The notes under the pieces were generated by a model that was not told the DNA's origin, searched no databases, and was given only the letters and a program-made list of their open reading frames with translations. 64,000 nt of DNA from Candidatus Sulfopaludibacter sp. SbA3 (GTDB lineage Bacteria; Pseudomonadota; Alphaproteobacteria; Caulobacterales; Hyphomonadaceae): assembly GCA_945913285.1 (NCBI GenBank), contig CAMEDD010000002.1, positions 1-64,000 of the forward strand. Direction: 5' to 3'. Shown one piece after another: positions 3,312-12,899 of this stretch (position 1 is its first letter; each line of letters starts with the position of its first letter). The position numbers were made by a program, and so were the translations under genes.

Positions 3312-5093
3312 ATGGTAGGGGTCATGTCGCGGATCTTTCTGGCAATCGCGTTTTCAGTGCTGGTGCTGTCATCGCGCGTCGAGGCGCAGACGGCTGCGCA
3401 GCCCGCGCGCCCAAACTTCGTGATCCTGTTGATCGACGATGCGGCCTTCATGGACCTCGGCATCTATGGCGGGGAGGCTCGTACGCCCAACATCGATACG
3501 CTGGCATCGGGCGGCGCAATGTTTACGCGTTACTACTCATCTCCACTCTGCTCGCCCTCGCGCGCCATGCTTCTCACCGGAATGGACAGCCACCTCACAG
3601 GCGTCTCCACCATTCCGGAAGTTCTGCCCAAGGAACATGAAGGTCAGCCCGGATATACGATGCGACTCGAGCCGGGGGTCGCAACGCTGGCCGACCGTCT
3701 GAAGCCGCTCGGATACCGCACGCTGATGACCGGAAAATGGCATCTCGGCAGCGGCAAGGGCGATCTGCCGGTGGCGCATGGTTTCGAGCGCTCGTTCGCG
3801 CTGGATGCCTCGGGGGCCGACAACTGGGAAGACAAGTCCTACATGCCTTACTACGCCGACGCGCCCTGGTATGAGGACGGCAAGCCGGCGAGCTTGCCGG
3901 AGGATTTCTATTCATCCGCCTTCATTGTGGACAAGATGGTGTCGTATCTCGAAGAAGGTCCGTCCACGGAGCCCTTCTTCGCCTACCTCGGATTTCAGGC
4001 AGTTCACATCCCCGTCCAGGCGCCCGCCGAGTTCACGGCGAAATACAAAGGCGTTTATGATGCCGGATGGGACGAGACACGCCTTGCCCGGTGGGGGCGC
4101 GCCAAGGCGCAGGGCTTCGTTCCTGAAGACGCCGCCCTCGCGCCGATGCCGGATCACTTTCGCGCATGGGCCTCGCTGTCGCCGGAAGAGCAAAAGCTCT
4201 ACGCTGCTCGGATGGAGGTCAATGCCGGCATGCTCGAGGCGATGGATTTCCACATTGGGCGCCTGGTCGCGCACCTGAAGTCGACGGGCCAGTTCGAGAA
4301 TACGGTCTTCGTGGTTACCTCCGACAACGGCCCGGAGCCATCCCGCGGCGACACTGACCCGCGGATGAAGTTCTGGATGAGCATGAACGGCTATCATCTG
4401 GATGCAGAGGGTATGGGGGAAAAAGGCAGCTGGGCATTTATTGGTCCGGAGTGGGCGATGGCGGCGGCGTCGCCGCACGACAAGTTCAAGTTCCTCGGTT
4501 CTGAAGGCGGCATCCGCGTTCCTTTCATCCTGTCGGGGGCAGGCTTGTCCTCCGGCAGGAGGATCGACGCCCGGGCGCACGTCACCGATATCGCGCCGAC
4601 CTTGCTGGCGCTCGCCGGCGCACCGGCAGACCTCGACGGCGCCAAACCCATCACCGGACGGAGTCTCCTGCCGCTATTGCGCGGCGAGACAGACGCCGTG
4701 TACGGGCCCGGCGACGCCATCGTCATCGAAGTATCCGGCAACGCCGCTGTCATCAAAGGCGATTACAAGCTGACGCGTAACCAGAAGCCGCACGGGGATG
4801 CCCGGTGGCGGCTTTACGACCTTTCCAAAGACCCAGGCGAAACCGAAGATCTCAGCGCGTCCTATCCAGAAACTTATGATGATCTGCAGACGGAGTATGC
4901 CAGCTATAGCCGCCGCGTCGGCGTGCTGGAAGTGCCTCCCGGCTACGACTCACTCGCGGAAGTCACGCGCCATTCGATGGCACGCCAGGCAAAGCAATAC
5001 GGGCCGGTCCTGATCGGTGCGGGAGCCGGCGCGGTGCTCGCTCTTGCGGCCGGCGTTTTTTTCTGGCGCCGCCGCCGCTCAAGAAGGGATTGA
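3312..5093 (+). CDS. Type-I sulfatase, exported and C-terminally membrane-anchored
   Basis: 593 aa from the ATG at 3312 (an ATG at 3324 is equally possible; an upstream TTG at 3225 would only add residues before the signal peptide). A signal peptide (MSRIFLAIAFSVLVLSSRVEA) precedes the alkaline-phosphatase-fold sulfatase domain. Metal ligands DD (about residues 42-43) and the signature CSPSR, Cys80, are present. That Cys must be converted to formylglycine for hydrolysis of sulfate esters. A later metal-site segment VTSDNGPEPS is also present. The C-terminus has a hydrophobic segment and an Arg-rich tail (AGVFFWRRRRSRRD), which would anchor it to the inner membrane facing the periplasm. A candidate maturase is encoded at 8691-9623. 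Substrate unknown. Confidence 0.92.
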   Translation: MVGVMSRIFLAIAFSVLVLSSRVEAQTAAQPARPNFVILLIDDAAFMDLGIYGGEARTPNIDTLASGGAMFTRYYSSPLCSPSRAMLLTGMDSHLTGVSTIPEVLPKEHEGQPGYTMRLEPGVATLADRLKPLGYRTLMTGKWHLGSGKGDLPVAHGFERSFALDASGADNWEDKSYMPYYADAPWYEDGKPASLPEDFYSSAFIVDKMVSYLEEGPSTEPFFAYLGFQAVHIPVQAPAEFTAKYKGVYDAGWDETRLARWGRAKAQGFVPEDAALAPMPDHFRAWASLSPEEQKLYAARMEVNAGMLEAMDFHIGRLVAHLKSTGQFENTVFVVTSDNGPEPSRGDTDPRMKFWMSMNGYHLDAEGMGEKGSWAFIGPEWAMAAASPHDKFKFLGSEGGIRVPFILSGAGLSSGRRIDARAHVTDIAPTLLALAGAPADLDGAKPITGRSLLPLLRGETDAVYGPGDAIVIEVSGNAAVIKGDYKLTRNQKPHGDARWRLYDLSKDPGETEDLSASYPETYDDLQTEYASYSRRVGVLEVPPGYDSLAEVTRHSMARQAKQYGPVLIGAGAGAVLALAAGVFFWRRRRSRRD

Positions 5094-5137: not shown

Positions 5138-5231
5138 TAATCTCAGTTATGACGACAAGGCACCCTCGATGGCTCGCCCGCGCACGCGCCGCAGGCAAAC
5201 CGTTTTGGCGCTGCGCGCGAGGCATGAGCCG

Positions 5232-6512
5232 ATGACGATCAAATCCTTTCTGGTGTCACGCGTCGCCGCAAGCATCACGAGCGAAAAGAGGCTCAAGCGT
5301 AACCGGGCCATGCAGGAATCGAAACGCCGCGCCGCCTCGGCGCCGCACACTGTTGATTACTTCCATGAGGCCGCGGATCCCTACGCGCACATCTGCCTGC
5401 AGGTCCTGCCGCAACTCGCGGCGCGCTATGATATCCGCCTGAACGTCCACCTCGTTGCACCGCCGCCGGATTGGGCGGCGCCCGAGCGCAGCCGACTTGA
5501 AGCCTATGCCCGGATCGATACGGCGCGTCTCGCGCGCCGGGCCGGGCTGCAATTCATCGATCCTGGCCGCCAGCCCGAAGTTGGCCAGATCCAAACCGCC
5601 AATGCGCGTTTTGCTACTGCGATTGATGGTGGATCGTTTCTCGTCGATGCGCTTCAGATCAGCAACGATCTCTGGAGCGGAAAGCTTTCCGGCTCCGCAG
5701 GACCTGCCACCGGCCTAGACGCCCGCCTTGCGGCAGGGAGCCAGAAGCGTGAAGAGCTTGGGCATTATCTCGGCGCCACCTTCAACTATGCTGGCGAGTG
5801 GTACTGGGGGCTCGACCGCTTGCACTATCTCGAAGCGCGCCTGACCGAACTTGGCGCGCAGAGACCCGGAGTGGGTAACGCCGCTATCTTGTCGCCGCTG
5901 GCCGTACCGTCCGGAACCGGCCGAAGCGCAACCACGCCGGAGTTGCACTACTACCTATCCTTCAGAAGTCCGTACACGTACATTGTTGTCGCCCGCGCCA
6001 AGGTGCTGGCCGATGCCTATGGCGCCGAACTGAAGCTGCGCTACGTCCTGCCCATGGTCATGCGCGGCCTGCCGGTGCCGCGCATAAAAAGGCAGTATAT
6101 CACGTTCGATACGGCCCGCGAAGCTCGCCGCCACGGCGTGCCGTTCGGCAAGATCGCAGACCCGGTTGGCAAGCCCGTGGAGCGCGGCTATTCGATCCTG
6201 CCCTGGGCGCAGGCGCAGGGCAGGGGCTATGAATTCTGCCAGGCCTTTCTCGCCGGAGTCTGGTCGCAGGGCATCGATGCCGGCAGCGATTCCGGCTTGC
6301 GCCAGATTGTAGAGGCTGCTGGCCTCGACTGGAACACCGCTCGCCAGCAGCTGGACACAGACACCTGGCGCGCCGAGGCAGAAGCCAACCGCGCCGAAAT
6401 GATGGCCCTCGGGGTCTGGGGCGTCCCCAGCTTCCGGGTGGGCGATGTGATCACCTGGGGCCAGGACCGCCTCTGGGTGATCGAGGAAGAATTGAAACGT
6501 CAGGCCGGATAA
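5232..6512 (+). CDS. Double DsbA/kappa-GST-like (2-hydroxychromene-2-carboxylate isomerase family) protein
   Basis: 426 aa from the ATG at 5232; the 5169 ATG only adds an Arg-rich, low-complexity lead. Two tandem thioredoxin-fold domains of the DsbA/HCCA-isomerase family are visible: about residues 30-200 (opening VDYFHEAADPYAH) and 235-426 (opening HYYLSFRSPYTY, closing GVWGVPSFRVGD and WGQDRLWVIEEEL). The second carries the SPYTY-type motif where family members place the glutathione-activating Ser. The first has ADPYAH and looks degenerate. Neither has a CXXC, so disulfide exchange is unlikely. It is probably a cytoplasmic glutathione-dependent isomerase or transferase in the island's catabolic pathway. 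It is followed 21 bases later by the DUF1330 gene. Confidence 0.85.
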   Translation: MTIKSFLVSRVAASITSEKRLKRNRAMQESKRRAASAPHTVDYFHEAADPYAHICLQVLPQLAARYDIRLNVHLVAPPPDWAAPERSRLEAYARIDTARLARRAGLQFIDPGRQPEVGQIQTANARFATAIDGGSFLVDALQISNDLWSGKLSGSAGPATGLDARLAAGSQKREELGHYLGATFNYAGEWYWGLDRLHYLEARLTELGAQRPGVGNAAILSPLAVPSGTGRSATTPELHYYLSFRSPYTYIVVARAKVLADAYGAELKLRYVLPMVMRGLPVPRIKRQYITFDTAREARRHGVPFGKIADPVGKPVERGYSILPWAQAQGRGYEFCQAFLAGVWSQGIDAGSDSGLRQIVEAAGLDWNTARQQLDTDTWRAEAEANRAEMMALGVWGVPSFRVGDVITWGQDRLWVIEEELKRQAG

Positions 6513-6533
6513 TCCGGCTAAGGAGGAATAAAC

Positions 6534-6992
6534 ATGCAGGTATTGAACGAAGTTTTCCCGACCGATCCCGCCCGGTTCTCGGCGATGATGGAGAAGGGAC
6601 CCGACGGCCCCATCTTCATGATCAATCTCCTGAAGTTCAAGGAAAAGGCCGCGTATGACGATGGCCGCCCTTGCGATCTTTCCGGCCGTGATGCCTACAT
6701 GATCTACGGCCGCGCCGTTGCCGAACTCCTGCCGAAGTTCGACGGGCGCTTCATCTTTGCAGGCGACGTCACCTTCCTGGCCCTCGGCCAGGTCGAAGAG
6801 CTTTGGGACGAAGTCGCCATTGCCATGTATCCCGACCGCGCTTCGATGGTGCGCATGTCTCTCTCCGAGGAGTGGCGCGAAATCGCCGTACACCGCTCCG
6901 CCGGTCTCGAGGGCCAGTTGAACATCGAAACCGTGCTCCCGCAGACCGGTGTTGCCTCACCCTTCCTCGATATGATCAAGGCGATGGGCTGA
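6534..6992 (+). CDS. DUF1330-family protein
   Basis: 152 aa, small cytoplasmic protein with a dimeric alpha/beta-barrel (ferredoxin-like) plan of the DUF1330 type: GPIFMINLLKFKE, then YGRAVAELLPKFDGRFIFAG and YPDRASMVRM, the pattern family members show around their presumed active cleft. The enzyme activity of the family is not established. A near-perfect Shine-Dalgarno (AAGGAGGAATAAAC) precedes the ATG, the strongest in the cluster, suggesting high expression. It lies between the DsbA-like gene (21 bases) and the hydrolase gene (4 bases), clearly in one operon. Confidence 0.82.
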   Translation: MQVLNEVFPTDPARFSAMMEKGPDGPIFMINLLKFKEKAAYDDGRPCDLSGRDAYMIYGRAVAELLPKFDGRFIFAGDVTFLALGQVEELWDEVAIAMYPDRASMVRMSLSEEWREIAVHRSAGLEGQLNIETVLPQTGVASPFLDMIKAMG

Positions 6993-6996
6993 GACC

Positions 6997-8082
6997 ATGG
7001 GCACCATTCGCTGGACTCTCCTCATCGCAGGCGCGGCTGCCGCGCTCCTCTTCGCCGGCGCCCAGGTCTTCCGTGTGCAGATCTCGGAATACCTTTTCGA
7101 ACGCGCCGTAAAGCAGAACATCGGCCGTAACTCTGCCGCGGGTCTGGAAGATGGTCTCCACGTTTACGTTTGCGGCGCGGGCTCCCCGTTCCCCGACCCG
7201 CAGCGCGGCGGCCCCTGTCTTGCTCTCGTCGCCGGCGACCAGCACGTCATCATCGATGCCGGTTCCGGCGGTATCCGGACCTTGACCCGGATGGGCTATC
7301 CCGTCGCCGAGATAGACGCGGTCTTCCTTACCCATCTGCATTCGGATCATTTGGATGGCCTCGGCGAGCTCCTGATGCAGGCCTGGGTCAATGGCGGCCG
7401 GGATGTGCCGATGCCCGTCCACGGGCCAGCCGGCGTCGATGAAGTCGTGAACGGTTTCAACGCCGCCTACCGTATCGACAGCACCTACCGCACCGGCCAT
7501 CACGGCCCGGAAATCGCCAACCCCGAAGGCCGCGGCGGCGCGCCCATCCCGATCACCATGCCAGCTGGGCCCGGCGGCCAGTCCGTTGTCTACGACGCGG
7601 GCGGCCTGACGATCACCGCCTTCAAGGTCAGCCACGCGCCAGTCGAGCCCGCCTATGGCTACCGTGCTGACTACAAGGGCCGTTCGGTCTCGATCAGCGG
7701 CGATTCGATCTACGATTCGAACCTCGTCGCCGCCTCCACTGGTGCAGACCTCCTGTTCCACGATGCGCTCAACCCCGACATGGTTCTGCGCATGCGCGAA
7801 GCGATCGCGCAAGCGGGCAGGGACGACCTCGCCAAGGTGCTGAACGACATCCTTGATTACCATGCCACGCCCGCCGACGCCGCCCGCGCGGCCCAGGACG
7901 CCGGCGCCGCACGCCTTGTCCTCTACCATACCGTCCCCCCCTTGCCGTCAAGGGCGCTCAACGCCTTGTTCATGAAGGACGCCCAGGCTCTATTTGACGG
8001 CCCGATGGAGGTCGCCGAAGATGGCCTCATCTACTCCCTGCCTGCGGCCAATACGTCGATCGAAGTCAAGAAAGCGTTTTGA
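6997..8082 (+). CDS. Membrane-anchored metallo-beta-lactamase-fold hydrolase
   Basis: 361 aa. An N-terminal hydrophobic segment (residues 5-22) acts as a signal anchor or uncleaved signal peptide, placing the catalytic domain in the periplasm. The zinc motif HLHSDH gives His113, His115, Asp117 and His118. Downstream ligands are likely in SGDSIYDSN and the C-terminal YHTVPP. The overall plan resembles RNase Z-like and AtsA-like arylsulfatase or lactonase members of the fold, so it could hydrolyse an ester, lactone or sulfate ester. It starts 4 bases after the DUF1330 stop, and its stop directly abuts the TetR ATG. Confidence 0.85.
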   Translation: MGTIRWTLLIAGAAAALLFAGAQVFRVQISEYLFERAVKQNIGRNSAAGLEDGLHVYVCGAGSPFPDPQRGGPCLALVAGDQHVIIDAGSGGIRTLTRMGYPVAEIDAVFLTHLHSDHLDGLGELLMQAWVNGGRDVPMPVHGPAGVDEVVNGFNAAYRIDSTYRTGHHGPEIANPEGRGGAPIPITMPAGPGGQSVVYDAGGLTITAFKVSHAPVEPAYGYRADYKGRSVSISGDSIYDSNLVAASTGADLLFHDALNPDMVLRMREAIAQAGRDDLAKVLNDILDYHATPADAARAAQDAGAARLVLYHTVPPLPSRALNALFMKDAQALFDGPMEVAEDGLIYSLPAANTSIEVKKAF

Positions 8083-8694
8083 ATGACCGACCTGAAAATC
8101 ATCCCGCTCGGCCCTGCGGCTAAGTCTGACACTTCCGACGGACGGCGCCAGCGCAGTGAACGCAGCCGTTCGCAGATCATCGAGGCGATGTTCAGCCTCA
8201 TCCGCGAAGGCGAGATGAGCCCCAGCGCGGCCCGTGTCGCCGAACGCGCCGAAGTCGGCCTGCGCACGGTCTTCCGCCATTTCGAAGATATGGACAGCCT
8301 CTATGTGGAGATGGCCGAGCGCATTTCATCGGAAGTCATGCCGAAAATCCTCGCCCCCTTCGAAGCGAGTGAGTGGCGTGAGCGCTTCTTCGAGCACATC
8401 GCCCGCCGCATCGAGATCTACGAGCACATCATGCCCGTGCGGGTCTCGGCGAACCTGCGCCGGTTCCAGTCTCGCTTCCTCATGGAAGAATACCGGCGCG
8501 GCCTGCTGATCGAACGCTCGACACTCAAGGCGCTTCTGCCGGAGGAGATCAACAATGATCCCGTCCTCTTCGCCGCCATCGAAACCTCCGCCAGCTTCCA
8601 GACCTGGCGCCGCCTGCGCCAGGATTCGGACCTCGCACCGGACGAAGCCGGCATTGTGTTCCGGCTGATGCTGGAACGTCTCCTCGGCGCATGA
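8083..8694 (+). CDS. TetR-family transcriptional regulator
   Basis: 203 aa. The N-terminal TetR helix-turn-helix spans about residues 25-70: SRSQIIEAMFSLIREG, then RVAERAEVGLRTVFRHFEDM with the usual Thr/Val-Phe-Arg-His-Phe recognition helix. The C-terminal helical domain would bind a small ligand. The ATG touches the hydrolase stop (TGAATG) and the last codon overlaps the maturase start by 4 bases, so it is translated inside the operon. It is the only regulator inside the sulfatase/dehalogenase island and the natural candidate for the two 17-bp palindromes at 5121 and 12750 (inference). Confidence 0.9.
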   Translation: MTDLKIIPLGPAAKSDTSDGRRQRSERSRSQIIEAMFSLIREGEMSPSAARVAERAEVGLRTVFRHFEDMDSLYVEMAERISSEVMPKILAPFEASEWRERFFEHIARRIEIYEHIMPVRVSANLRRFQSRFLMEEYRRGLLIERSTLKALLPEEINNDPVLFAAIETSASFQTWRRLRQDSDLAPDEAGIVFRLMLERLLGA

Positions 8695-9623
8695 GGCGCG
8701 CGGGCGCGCTGCTCGCAGCGGCCGTCCTCGCCGCATGCGGTGCCGCGGCGCCCTCAGATGCGCCGCTGGTTGACGTATCGCGACCAACTTGCGGTCTGGA
8801 CGCCGATGCCATCGGTCAGTTCGTCAACATACCATCCGGCCAGTACCGCAAGGGCGCCTACGCCGTCTATCCTGAAGAAGCGCCCGAGATGATCCTGCAT
8901 ATCGCAGGCTTCGAGATGCTCGCCCATGAAGTTACCAATGCCGAGTTCGCACGTTTCTCTGAAGCGACCGGATATCTGACGACGGCTGAGCGCAGCGTGG
9001 CCGCCGGTGGCCCTGGTGCCGGTTCTGCCGTGTTTCGTATGCCGGCCGAACGCGCGGCGCCCACCGATACCTGGCAACTCGTCCCCGGCGCCACCTGGCG
9101 CGCGCCCGAAGGTCCGGGGTCGGACATTTTCGCGCGTATGCACCACCCCGTCGTGCATGTCTCGCTGGGTGACGCCGAGGCCTTTGCCGCCTGGGCCGGC
9201 GCCCGCTTGCCCACCGAGGAGGAATGGGAATACGCCGCCGCCATCGGCCTGCCGGATCCCGCCGATCCCCAGTCAGGCGCCTTTGACGCTTCAGGCAAAC
9301 CTGTCGCCAATACCTGGCAAGGCATTTTTCCGGTTATTGATCAAGCCTCGGACGGGGTCGCCGGCCGAGCGACGGCAGGCTGCTTCGCGCCGAGCGCCAT
9401 CGGCCTCTACGACATGATCGGTAATGTCTGGGAATGGACCGCCACGCCCTATCAGGCAGGCGAGAACACGATCAAAGGCGGATCCTATCTGTGTGCGGAC
9501 AATTTCTGCCGCCGCTACCGGCCCGCCGCCCGCCAGCCTCAGGAAATGGATTTCTCCTCAGGCCATATTGGCTTCCGCGTCGTGAGAGACATGCCCCCGG
9601 CTGTTTCAGGCCCGCCGGAGTGA
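8691..9623 (+). CDS. Formylglycine-generating enzyme (sulfatase maturase), predicted lipoprotein
   Basis: 310 aa. The FGE-sulfatase domain is clear: VNIPSGQYRKG, VTNAEFARFSEATGYLT, LPTEEEWEYAAAIG, NTWQGIFPV, GLYDMIGNVWEWT and KGGSYLCADNFCRRYRPAAR. Cys268 and Cys273 match the copper-binding active-site pair of aerobic FGEs (CX4C), which oxidise the sulfatase signature Cys to formylglycine with O2. It has an N-terminal signal with lipobox LAAC (Cys16, Gly at +2), predicting an outer-membrane lipoprotein facing the periplasm. Characterised bacterial FGEs are mostly cytoplasmic, so this location is unusual. Its partners are presumably the two sulfatases in the island. It overlaps the TetR gene by 4 bases and its 3' end meets the convergent membrane-protein gene. 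Confidence 0.9.
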   Translation: MRRAGALLAAAVLAACGAAAPSDAPLVDVSRPTCGLDADAIGQFVNIPSGQYRKGAYAVYPEEAPEMILHIAGFEMLAHEVTNAEFARFSEATGYLTTAERSVAAGGPGAGSAVFRMPAERAAPTDTWQLVPGATWRAPEGPGSDIFARMHHPVVHVSLGDAEAFAAWAGARLPTEEEWEYAAAIGLPDPADPQSGAFDASGKPVANTWQGIFPVIDQASDGVAGRATAGCFAPSAIGLYDMIGNVWEWTATPYQAGENTIKGGSYLCADNFCRRYRPAARQPQEMDFSSGHIGFRVVRDMPPAVSGPPE

Positions 9624-10067
9624 CATCGCCAGAAAGATCAGCAGAACGGGCACGCTGCCCAGCGTAACCCAGGCCTCCGGCGGGTGGTGGCCGTCCGCCA
9701 GATGCGAGCCCTTGGGCCCCCACATGTTCCAGGTGTGCAGGGCGCGTTCTATGGTCAACAGACCAAGCGCGAGCGGTACGAGCGACCGGTAGCGCAATGA
9801 CACGGCGAGCAACATCAGTCCCCAGACGAATTGCGTCGTCCCGGCCCAGGCAAACAGGCTGATGATGATGCGTTCGGCGCCTGAGATATCGAGCCCGGCA
9901 ATCACCACCGCGCCGCCGTCGGGCAGTCCGATATGCAGCAATGCCGAACTGATCGTCGCGGCGGCAATAACGGTGAGCCCCCAGGCGGCCGCTTTCATGC
10001 CGCCATAGGCGTCGTTGGTGGACGCAGGCAACAAGGACATGCCCGGCGCCATCAGTTGGGCCACCAC
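9606..10067 (-). CDS. Small multi-pass membrane protein of unknown function
   Basis: 153 aa with about four hydrophobic segments (WGLTVIAAATISSALL, IIISLFAWAGTTQFVWGL, SLVPLALGLLTIERALH, VTLGSVPVLLIFLAMSL). A short His/Asp-rich loop (HLADGHHPPEAW) lies between the last two. I do not recognise the family. Its start lies inside the last 16 bases of sulfatase 2, so it belongs to the dehalogenase-sulfatase operon, and its 3' end overlaps the convergent maturase gene by 18 bases. An ATG at 10043 is an alternative start. Confidence 0.7.
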   Translation of the reverse strand: MVAQLMAPGMSLLPASTNDAYGGMKAAAWGLTVIAAATISSALLHIGLPDGGAVVIAGLDISGAERIIISLFAWAGTTQFVWGLMLLAVSLRYRSLVPLALGLLTIERALHTWNMWGPKGSHLADGHHPPEAWVTLGSVPVLLIFLAMSLRRA

Positions 10068-11710
10068 ACGATCTCGTCCCCGGCCGTCAGCTCCTGCGCG
10101 CTCGTCTTGTCGATCGTCACCGGTATGTCCGACGTCGACGCATACAGCGGGGCCCGCGCGTTCTCATGGTGCCGGTCCAGCAGCGCTTGCAGTTCCGCCA
10201 ACTTCTCCGGCTCGCTCGCGGCAAGGTTTGTCGACTCGGTTGGATCTTTGCCAAGGTCGAACAGCCAGGACTTACCCTGTTTGCCGTCCACCTGCAGCTT
10301 CCAGCTGCCCGCCCGCACTACGCGGTAATAGCCGCTCTGCCAGAACAGCGCATCATCTGGCCGCACCAGCCCGCCCACGCCCTCTGCCAACGGAAGAAGA
10401 CTACGCCCATCGATCTCCACGCCTGCTGGCAAACCCACGCCCGCGGCCTCGGCCAGTGTCGGTGTCACATCGATATGCGCCACCGGCGTGTCGATCACCG
10501 TGCCCGCCGGGATGCGCGCCGGCCAGCTCACGAACATCGGCACACGGATCCCGCCTTCGAACAGCGAGAGCTTCCAGCCCCGATAAGGGTCGTTGATGCC
10601 CGCCAGATCGATATAGCCCGGGCCGCCATTGTCGCTGGAAAACACGATGATCGTGTTCTCGGCCAGGCCTTCTTCTTCGAGCTTTGCAACAATCTGACCG
10701 ACGCTGCGGTCGAGTGCCCGCAGCATCGCGGCGTACACCCGCACTTTGTGCGAGCCGACATCGCCGACCGCGTCATAGTCCTCCTTCGTTGCCTGCAGCG
10801 GTGTGTGCACGCCCCAGTGGGCGAGATAGAGGAAGAAAGGTTGGTTCTTGTTGGCCTCGATCACCTTCAGCGATTCCTCGGTCCAGTAGTCAGCGAGGTA
10901 TCCGCCCGGCGCGAAGGTTGGTCCGTCATTGTAGGACGTTGAAAAATCGCCGCGGGCCCAGAGGAACTTGTCGATCGGATCCGTCTCGAGCTTTGCGTTC
11001 ACCACCTCCGGATCATCTGCAGGCAGATGCAGCAGCCCTGTCATGACGAGGCTCTCGTCGAAGCCCTGTGCATTCGGATGGAACTCGTCCGAATTGCCGA
11101 GATGCCACTTGCCGATATGGACCGTGTGATAGCCCTTGTCTTTCAGCATTTCAGCAATCGTTACTTCCGATCCAGGCAGCCCCTGGTCCTCGAAATCGGG
11201 AAGCGTGGCCGCCGCTTTGGGGTCAAAGCCCACCTTCGGCCGGCCCCGCGTGTCGTCATTGGCGAACAGGGTGACGATCCGCCCCATGCCGTTCGGCGTC
11301 GGCGTGAATTCGAATCCCGTCCGCGTCGGATAGCGCCCCGTCAGCAGCATGGCGCGCGACGGCGCGCAGGTGCCGGTGCCGGAATAGGCCGTTGAGAAAT
11401 TCGCGCCCCGCGCCGCCAGCGCGTCGATGTTTGGCGTGGGCGCACGCCCCTGCGCAAGGCCGCCTCCGAAGGTCGTGATATCGTTGATGCCGAGGTCGTC
11501 CACGAGGATGAAGATGATGTTCGGCGGCCGGTCGCTTGGCGCAGTCACAGCTGCGGCCGGTCCCTGCATCCAGGCTACCGGCTCATGAGGCGCGATCTCG
11601 GGCCGGTCGGCGCGCGTCACCAGAAACAGGATGATCTCTTTGCGGAAGTAGAACCCCAGCGCGCCCGCGCCCACGATGATTGCCAGAATGATCAGCAGGA
11701 TCCGTTTCAT
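10052..11710 (-). CDS. Type-I sulfatase, N-terminally membrane-anchored
   Basis: 552 aa from the ATG at 11710, which has a GGGGGAG ribosome-binding site; a longer upstream reading has no support. The N-terminal segment MKRILLIILAIIVGAGALGF is followed by positive residues (a signal anchor). Then come the sulfatase core with metal ligands DD (71-72), the signature CAPSR with Cys115 as the formylglycine precursor, KWHLGNSDEFHP and SSDNGGPGYID (second metal site). The family removes sulfate, occasionally phosphonate, esters. It lies 17 bases after the dehalogenase stop and overlaps the downstream membrane-protein gene, so all three are probably one transcript. It would need the FGE at 8691 for activation. 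Confidence 0.92.
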   Translation of the reverse strand: MKRILLIILAIIVGAGALGFYFRKEIILFLVTRADRPEIAPHEPVAWMQGPAAAVTAPSDRPPNIIFILVDDLGINDITTFGGGLAQGRAPTPNIDALAARGANFSTAYSGTGTCAPSRAMLLTGRYPTRTGFEFTPTPNGMGRIVTLFANDDTRGRPKVGFDPKAAATLPDFEDQGLPGSEVTIAEMLKDKGYHTVHIGKWHLGNSDEFHPNAQGFDESLVMTGLLHLPADDPEVVNAKLETDPIDKFLWARGDFSTSYNDGPTFAPGGYLADYWTEESLKVIEANKNQPFFLYLAHWGVHTPLQATKEDYDAVGDVGSHKVRVYAAMLRALDRSVGQIVAKLEEEGLAENTIIVFSSDNGGPGYIDLAGINDPYRGWKLSLFEGGIRVPMFVSWPARIPAGTVIDTPVAHIDVTPTLAEAAGVGLPAGVEIDGRSLLPLAEGVGGLVRPDDALFWQSGYYRVVRAGSWKLQVDGKQGKSWLFDLGKDPTESTNLAASEPEKLAELQALLDRHHENARAPLYASTSDIPVTIDKTSAQELTAGDEIVWWPN

Positions 11711-11727: not shown

Positions 11728-12714
<987 letters not shown>

Positions 12715-12749
12715 GTGTCGGGGTCTCCTGCAAGATGGGGGCGGCATTA

Positions 12750-12766
12750 TGGCATTATTAATGCCA
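12750..12766. promoter_or_regulatory. Palindromic operator candidate, copy 2
   Basis: TGGCATTATTAATGCCA, a perfect 8+1+8 inverted repeat, 36 bases upstream of the dehalogenase start and within the promoter region shared with the divergent gene at 12900. An extra half-site (GGCATTAT) sits at 12743-12750. Same size and core as the palindrome at 5121-5137. Confidence 0.6.
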
Positions 12767-12899
12767 ATAATAGATCCGGTCAATCTGATCCGGGGGCCCT
12801 GTCTGCGGCGTTGGGTGAGCGCTGGTTCATGTCAGTTTCATCGACAACCGGCAAAATGATTGTAGGATCATAAGTCTGAGAAGCCTGCAGGTTGTCCCC

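Follow-up and report, generated by a model that had tools for sequence, protein, structure and literature searches.

A formylglycine-generating enzyme with a predicted lipoprotein signal lies beside two Sec-type sulfatases in Hyphomonas and belongs to a widespread, apparently exported branch of the family

Formylglycine-generating enzymes (FGEs) have been placed in two compartments. In the sections of PMC4505483 available to us, human FGE enters the secretory route and works in the endoplasmic reticulum (ER), prokaryotic FGE "resides in the cytosol", and the S. coelicolor enzyme is cytosolic; the same sections describe FGE chemistry (copper, a disulfide with the substrate cysteine, the role of a reductant) and the structural disulfides of the human enzyme, C218–C365 and C235–C346. 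The contrast with cytosolic bacterial FGEs drawn in a first-pass annotation of the DNA studied here matches that stated view. Reports on exported sulfatases and on the use of Rv0712 for maturation do not, in their available parts, address where the FGE is located (PMC10154612, PMC6923384). A literature search, with subscription journals mostly outside it, turned up no catalytic bacterial FGE described as exported. Other exported proteins share the fold or the domain. PorK, GldK and GldJ have an FGE-like fold, and PorK is an outer-membrane lipoprotein, but their role is structural and they lack the catalytic cysteines (available excerpts of PMC12421860). OCTIN is a disulfide-bonded FGE-domain protein exported in Gram-negative bacteria, but it forms oligomers and likewise lacks the catalytic cysteines (available excerpts of PMC5915273).

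The window analysed here, which is the whole 64,000-nucleotide stretch of DNA, belongs to a Hyphomonas genome (3.02 Mb, 93% complete) and holds an island with one FGE gene and two sulfatase genes (Table 1). The FGE start codon overlaps the stop of the upstream TetR-like gene, and the interval from sulfatase 1 to the FGE encodes a GST-kappa/DsbA-like protein, a DUF1330 protein, the MBL hydrolase and the TetR-like regulator. Both sulfatases carry Sec-type signals by eye, and sulfatase 1 combines a cleavable-looking signal with a C-terminal hydrophobic segment and basic tail. The two exported CxPSR sulfatases described in the first-pass annotation are therefore present, with CSPSR and CAPSR motifs and with export or membrane-anchor signals on both. 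The arrangement is conserved among 28 close orthologs, with sulfatase 2 nearby in 27 (the contig of the 28th ends there), sulfatase 1 in 22 and the TetR-like gene in 25.

Table 1 Features of the FGE and sulfatase island, in window coordinates
Feature	Position	Strand	Basis or remark
Sulfatase 1 with signal peptide and hydrophobic C-terminal anchor	3324..5093	+	PF00884 E 1.3e-56; start 3312 or 3324, ORF listed from 3225
CSPSR modification motif, sulfatase 1	3549..3563	+	
Membrane-anchored MBL-fold hydrolase	6997..8082	+	PF12706; recurs beside exported FGEs
TetR-like regulator directly upstream of FGE	8083..8694	+	Weak TetR_N match, below cut-off; relative beside FGE in 25/28 close orthologs
FGE with predicted lipoprotein signal	8691..9623	+	310 aa, ATG start; PF03781 E 3.4e-58
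Predicted lipoprotein signal ending LAAC, Cys16	8691..8738	+	Sequence; kept in 28/28 close orthologs
Cys34, likely disulfide partner of Cys231	8790..8792	+	Cys before domain in 91/91 exported FGEs with loop Cys
Cys231, loop before GLYDMIGNVWEW	9381..9383	+	Loop Cys in 91/97 exported, 0/74 unsignalled
Catalytic CX4C (Cys268, Cys273)	9492..9509	+	Aligns with the active-site cysteines of solved FGEs
Sulfatase 2, N-terminal hydrophobic anchor	10052..11710	-	PF00884 E 1.9e-56; ORF listed to 11821
CAPSR modification motif, sulfatase 2	11354..11368	-	
Haloalkane-dehalogenase-like hydrolase, after sulfatase 2	11728..12783	-	NF002043 above cut-off; relative in 11/74 exported vs 0/78 unsignalled loci outside 28-ortholog group

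By domain, CX4C motif and fold, the FGE gene product is a complete enzyme of the catalytic (SUMF1) type, for which copper-dependent conversion of cysteine to formylglycine is predicted. PF03781 is its sole Pfam domain, spanning residues 43–299 and profile positions 4–255 of 255 (197.8 bits against a cut-off of 23.3). C268 and C273 align with the catalytic cysteines of human and T. curvata FGE, which bears out the full FGE domain and active-site pair read in the first-pass annotation; CX4C is invariant among the 37 sequences of alignment A1 and stands in a GGSxxC context with S265 present. The nearest solved structures, by sequence as well as by predicted fold, are human and actinobacterial FGEs. 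An AlphaFold model (pLDDT 85.3, pTM 0.83) has human FGE as its best fold match (TM 0.75 on the query and 39% identity for 1z70), and the first 28 PDB matches are all FGE or its human paralogue SUMF2. After the catalytic FGEs, the fold search returned SUMF2, CalU17, PorK, PvdO and EgtB. PvdO, a protein of pyoverdine maturation, has an FGE-like fold but is 22–24% identical and stands at rank 31, and the window FGE does not reach the cut-off of the PvdO model. It is periplasmic, and its substrate is a siderophore. Membership of the PvdO, EgtB, SenA and GldK families was rejected, as NCBIfam scores of 35.9, 83.7, 83.7 and 63.3 bits lie far below the respective cut-offs of 500, 360, 420 and 350. 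Human FGE shares the catalytic domain, CX4C and fold, but it is a luminal ER protein rather than a lipoprotein, and its disulfides differ from the Cys34/Cys231 pair described below. Among the actinobacterial FGEs (T. curvata, S. coelicolor, M. tuberculosis Rv0712), the catalytic CX4C and the fold are shared by the T. curvata and S. coelicolor enzymes; mycobacterial and Micromonospora relatives, however, have neither a signal nor a loop cysteine, and T. curvata FGE falls outside the exported branch.

The N-terminus of the window FGE is typical of a lipoprotein signal, and lipidation at Cys16 is predicted. Its first 16 residues, MRRAGALLAAAVLAAC, contain two arginines, an uncharged hydrophobic stretch and a final LAAC (Cys16 codon 8736–8738), and by rule they supply the positive n-region, hydrophobic h-region and lipobox cysteine of such signals. 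A lipobox is found in all 28 close orthologs (22 by strict regular expression, the other six by eye as LPAC, TAAC, GPAC and GIGC types), and the lipobox Cys column is occupied throughout L044–L072 as well as in the window protein. The signal peptide and LAAC lipobox noted in the first pass are thus visible in the sequence and conserved. A downstream start codon, which had been named there as a way in which the signal could be lost, fails as an objection because the next in-frame start is residue 67, within the PF03781 domain, and no alternative start lies ahead of it. A cytosolic bacterial FGE would have no export signal; this one has a conserved lipobox signal. Residue +2 is Gly in the window FGE; across 58 lipobox-type FGEs, this position holds G 21 times, S 14 times and D six times. 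Under the E. coli +2 rule, a lipoprotein with Gly at +2 would be directed to the outer membrane.

The wider comparison used a set composed of the window, its relatives, 80 named loci and FGE loci from 398 genomes sampled evenly across the phylum. The 184 loci surveyed gave 182 CX4C FGEs (L094 is a truncated gene and L289 had no match), in which L072 and L098 are one species counted twice. Signals were called with our own N-terminus rules rather than SignalP or LipoP; in a control, these rules miscalled three of 133 proteins from presumed cytosolic families and called 23 of 23 membrane-anchored MBL proteins. Calls for L117, L162, L164 and L284 were overridden to unsignalled (far-upstream or chance starts) and those for L073, L080, L277 and L093 to exported. 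A tree of the catalytic domain without the signal columns holds 181 labelled FGEs, L093 being left out as too short. By rule, 104 of these are exported and 77 are not, and after seven hand corrections the counts are 103 and 78; as the corrected rows were noticed because their label conflicted with the neighbours or with the loop cysteine, all corrected figures lean toward our own reading. The L163 sulfatase was recoded as a lipoprotein in the locus table only. Three of the 72 matches in the phylum sample were left unlabelled (G102 C993, G102 C1559, G310 C94). A later class-level set of 27 loci gave 24 FGEs (none at L303, L316 and L317), with L311 moved to exported by eye.

On the catalytic-domain tree, the corrected export label needs two changes, against a mean of 59.9 for 500 shuffled labels, none of which goes as low; the uncorrected label needs nine. 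With corrected labels, 98 exported and no unsignalled FGEs lie on one side of a branch with an SH-aLRT of 92. The other five exported FGEs (L085, L273, L276, L277 and L280) fall in a 14-row set with human FGE, T. curvata FGE and seven unsignalled FGEs (support 98), where L085 sits on a long branch; they perhaps mark a second origin of export. These five, together with L310 and L311 from outside the tree set, are exported FGEs in which the loop cysteine is absent or the loop unread. Among the 398 genomes sampled from the phylum, FGE matches at E 1e-30 occur in 59, of which 26 have exported FGEs only, 30 unsignalled only and two both, with one unlabelled. Carriers of exported FGEs include, by name, Roseivivax, Pseudovibrio, Sphingomonas, Erythrobacter, Caulobacter, Cupriavidus, Marinobacterium and Pseudomonas mosselii, and no signal is present on the FGEs of Mycobacterium, Micromonospora, Bradyrhizobium, another Sphingomonas (L143) and another Pseudomonas (L141). 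The tree and the sample go beyond the local view taken in the first pass: the exported FGE is a widespread branch of the family and not a single-locus curiosity.

A second cysteine pair marks most exported FGEs. Among readable loops (10 were unread), the cysteine equivalent to Cys231 occurs in 91 of 97 exported FGEs and in none of the 74 unsignalled ones, or in 89 of 99 and 2 of 72 with uncorrected labels; the position is not cysteine in human or T. curvata FGE. All 91 exported FGEs with the loop cysteine also have a cysteine ahead of the domain, which the script found in 69 and inspection by eye in the 22 where the script had taken it for the lipobox, and the six exported FGEs without the loop cysteine have none in the mature N-terminus (four by script, two by eye). 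Some cysteine upstream of the domain was found by script in 14 of 74 unsignalled FGEs, all without the loop cysteine. In the class-level set, the loop cysteine was found by script in 12 of 16 exported FGEs and by eye in a thirteenth (L295), is absent from L310 and could not be read in two; two unsignalled calls have a cysteine at the loop, at another position in L304 and in a truncated gene in L307. The joint presence and absence of the two residues suggests a disulfide, which would be at home in an oxidising compartment, and from this pattern Cys34 and Cys231 probably form one in exported FGEs.

FGE location was compared with the export route of neighbouring sulfatases. Of 111 Cys-type sulfatases that adjoin exported FGEs, 107 carry Sec or lipoprotein signals and three are Tat-looking; the remaining one, L163, had an unsignalled call but is a lipoprotein by eye. 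Beside unsignalled FGEs the counts are 15 of 70 with Sec or lipoprotein signals, 18 Tat and 37 without a signal. Uncorrected labels give 106 of 113 against 17 of 69, and the phylum sample alone gives 32 of 33 against 12 of 33. The nominal Fisher p of 1.6e-27 (107/111 against 15/70) is overstated, since the rows are related, and the tree offers two independent pairs, so that no significance is possible; the association rests on about two evolutionary changes. In G091 and G684, of the same genus, both kinds coexist, the exported FGE by an N-terminally anchored sulfatase and the unsignalled FGE by a Tat sulfatase. In the class-level set, exported FGEs have Sec neighbours in 12 of 14 scripted cases (14 of 16 after moving L311), the two exceptions being a Tat call and a sulfatase without a signal that lies about 5 kb from the FGE. 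The contrast is weak in that set, since unsignalled FGEs have Sec neighbours in five of eight scripted cases and three of seven after correction. The dependable rule is one-sided: exported FGEs accompany Sec sulfatases, and unsignalled FGEs accompany all kinds.

The window genome contains two PF03781 loci and three PF00884 proteins, the latter being the two island sulfatases and an NPP-like lipoprotein without a CxPSR motif. A second, cytosolic FGE was rejected, as the sole other PF03781 match (L002) has no CX4C. This protein (L002:478-2169, G000:C19) is a TIR–FGE fusion in which a TIR-like N-terminus (by eye) is followed by a Pro-rich linker, a hydrophobic segment and an FGE domain without catalytic cysteines; the layout suggests a sensor or defence protein that uses the FGE fold. 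An anaerobic radical-SAM maturase was also rejected as a candidate on its model, TIGR03942, which has no match in the window genome and none in 12 genomes with an exported FGE as their sole strong match (11 Hyphomonas and one of another genus, picked on that property); two of 14 control genomes exceed its cut-off. Because the window genome is incomplete, its relatives matter for whether the lipoprotein is the only maturase. Three single-contig, 100% complete Hyphomonas genomes (G016, G019, G036) have one strong FGE match each, which is the lipoprotein; G036 has two further matches (E 2.7e-5 and 9.2e-4).

Sulfatases in these relatives do not all appear to take the Sec route. The 12 genomes with an exported FGE as their only strong match contain 34 Cys-type sulfatases (eight weak matches were left out as non-Cys-type, one of the eight, G016:2299920, uninspected), of which 29 are Sec, anchored or lipoprotein, four Tat-like and one apparently cytosolic by eye. 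The Tat-like sulfatases L195, L223, L224 and L225 (RK instead of RR in L224 and L225) belong to Hyphomonas G007, G019 and G036, where the only strong FGE is exported. The fifth, the cytosolic-looking L217 (G019:C1:2126708-2127799), is a Cys-type protein with CNASR; its Hyphomonas genome is complete, and the exported lipoprotein is the only strong FGE match there. Because Tat substrates are already folded when exported, their cysteine should be out of reach of a periplasmic FGE, and they would need a cytosolic one. These five sulfatases do not fit a simple periplasmic version and count against it; they may be unmodified or matured otherwise, or the model may be incomplete.

Reading lipidation, location, disulfide, activity, substrates and timing from sequence, we propose that the window FGE most probably acts as an exported periplasmic lipoprotein that oxidises Sec-exported sulfatases after translocation. 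The precursor would cross the inner membrane through Sec, be lipidated at Cys16 and face the periplasm on a membrane, where a Cys34–Cys231 disulfide would stabilise it. As the two adjacent, membrane-anchored sulfatases leave the translocon unfolded, the FGE would hold their CxPSR cysteine by way of Cys273, which corresponds to human Cys341, and the sulfatase cysteine would be oxidised to formylglycine by copper and O2. This would occur after inner-membrane crossing and before folding ends, much as ER FGE acts on nascent sulfatases. The need of FGE for a reductant counts against such a model in an oxidising periplasm. The first-pass proposal of oxidation after translocation gains comparative support for FGE export and post-translocation action from the lipobox, the clade, the cysteine pair, the Sec neighbours and the lack of another strong FGE match here or in the three single-contig Hyphomonas genomes; the Tat-like and cytosolic-looking sulfatases do not fit a simple version of it. 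As a whole, the post-translocation interpretation is well supported though unproven, and is wider than first proposed.

Other readings share parts of this evidence. If the FGE were exported to act on something other than a sulfatase, in a PvdO-like oxidation of another periplasmic molecule, the sulfatases would be matured otherwise. FGE-fold proteins with other periplasmic roles do exist in PvdO and PorK/GldK (for the latter, excerpts of PMC12421860), and the window FGE has weak matches to the PvdO and GldK models. Those models and that of EgtB nevertheless stay far below cut-off, the nearest structures are catalytic FGEs with PvdO only at its low rank, sulfatase 2 stays nearby in all but one ortholog, and no further CX4C FGE or TIGR03942 maturase was found in the window genome, which makes this reading unlikely.

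The FGE might also act in the cytosol as a slowly exported precursor, on sulfatases before or during their own export, with the lipid anchor incidental. Cytosolic residence is the stated bacterial view (PMC4505483, in the sections available), and cytosolic-looking and Tat-like sulfatases do occur in genomes whose only strong FGE is exported. We consider such a precursor quite unlikely to be the working form, given that orthologs keep the lipobox, that most of the exported clade has the extra cysteine pair and that unsignalled FGEs lack the pair although some adjoin Sec sulfatases. The reliance on rule-based signal calls, eight of 182 overridden by hand in the wider set (four each way) and one more later, leaves room for an ordinary cytosolic FGE with a mispredicted start or an N-terminus hydrophobic by chance. 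This is very improbable, with no other start before the domain, a lipobox conserved in 28 orthologs and a catalytic-domain tree that clusters the export label even uncorrected (nine changes against about 60 for the shuffled corrected label).

Extended to the phylum, the preferred reading, oxidation after translocation, makes it likely that Proteobacteria have two compartments for aerobic formylglycine formation: an old exported clade (lipoprotein, anchored or free, mostly with Cys34/Cys231) for Sec sulfatases in the periplasm, and unsignalled FGEs for cytosolic, Tat and some Sec sulfatases. If so, nearly half of the sampled FGE-bearing Pseudomonadota (26 of 59) would use the periplasmic route only, and the view of bacterial FGE as cytosolic would have been generalised from Actinobacteria. 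An exported FGE would contradict the stated view of a cytosolic prokaryotic enzyme and would offer a bacterial model for questions raised by ER FGE, namely the reductant in an oxidising compartment, copper delivery and access to the substrate before it folds. It could put aldehyde tags on secreted proteins in biotechnology, and in annotation would help to predict whether an exported sulfatase is matured before or after export.

Two exported FGEs, L080 and L081, have the RYRPAAR stretch after CX4C changed to NANPFGR and NANPSGR, and their substrate recognition may differ. In the island itself, the DsbA-like neighbour (5169–6512) was rejected as a redox partner, having no CXXC at the expected place by eye; we take it to be of the HCCA-isomerase/GST-kappa kind. 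Clustering of the neighbours of exported FGEs, judged by eye over the 28 commonest families, brought out no conserved partner for redox or copper supply. Outside the 28-ortholog group, genes recurring beside exported FGEs are TetR-like (13 of 74 loci), haloalkane-dehalogenase-like (11), MBL (7) and GST-kappa/DsbA-like (7), against 0 of 78 beside unsignalled FGEs. This recurrence (window 5169–8694 and 11728–12783) suggests a catabolic cassette for a sulfated organic compound. The same Hyphomonas island, with both sulfatases and an FGE 87% identical, occurs in a record titled "Acidobacteria bacterium Ga0077551" (L087), a title that is probably wrong.
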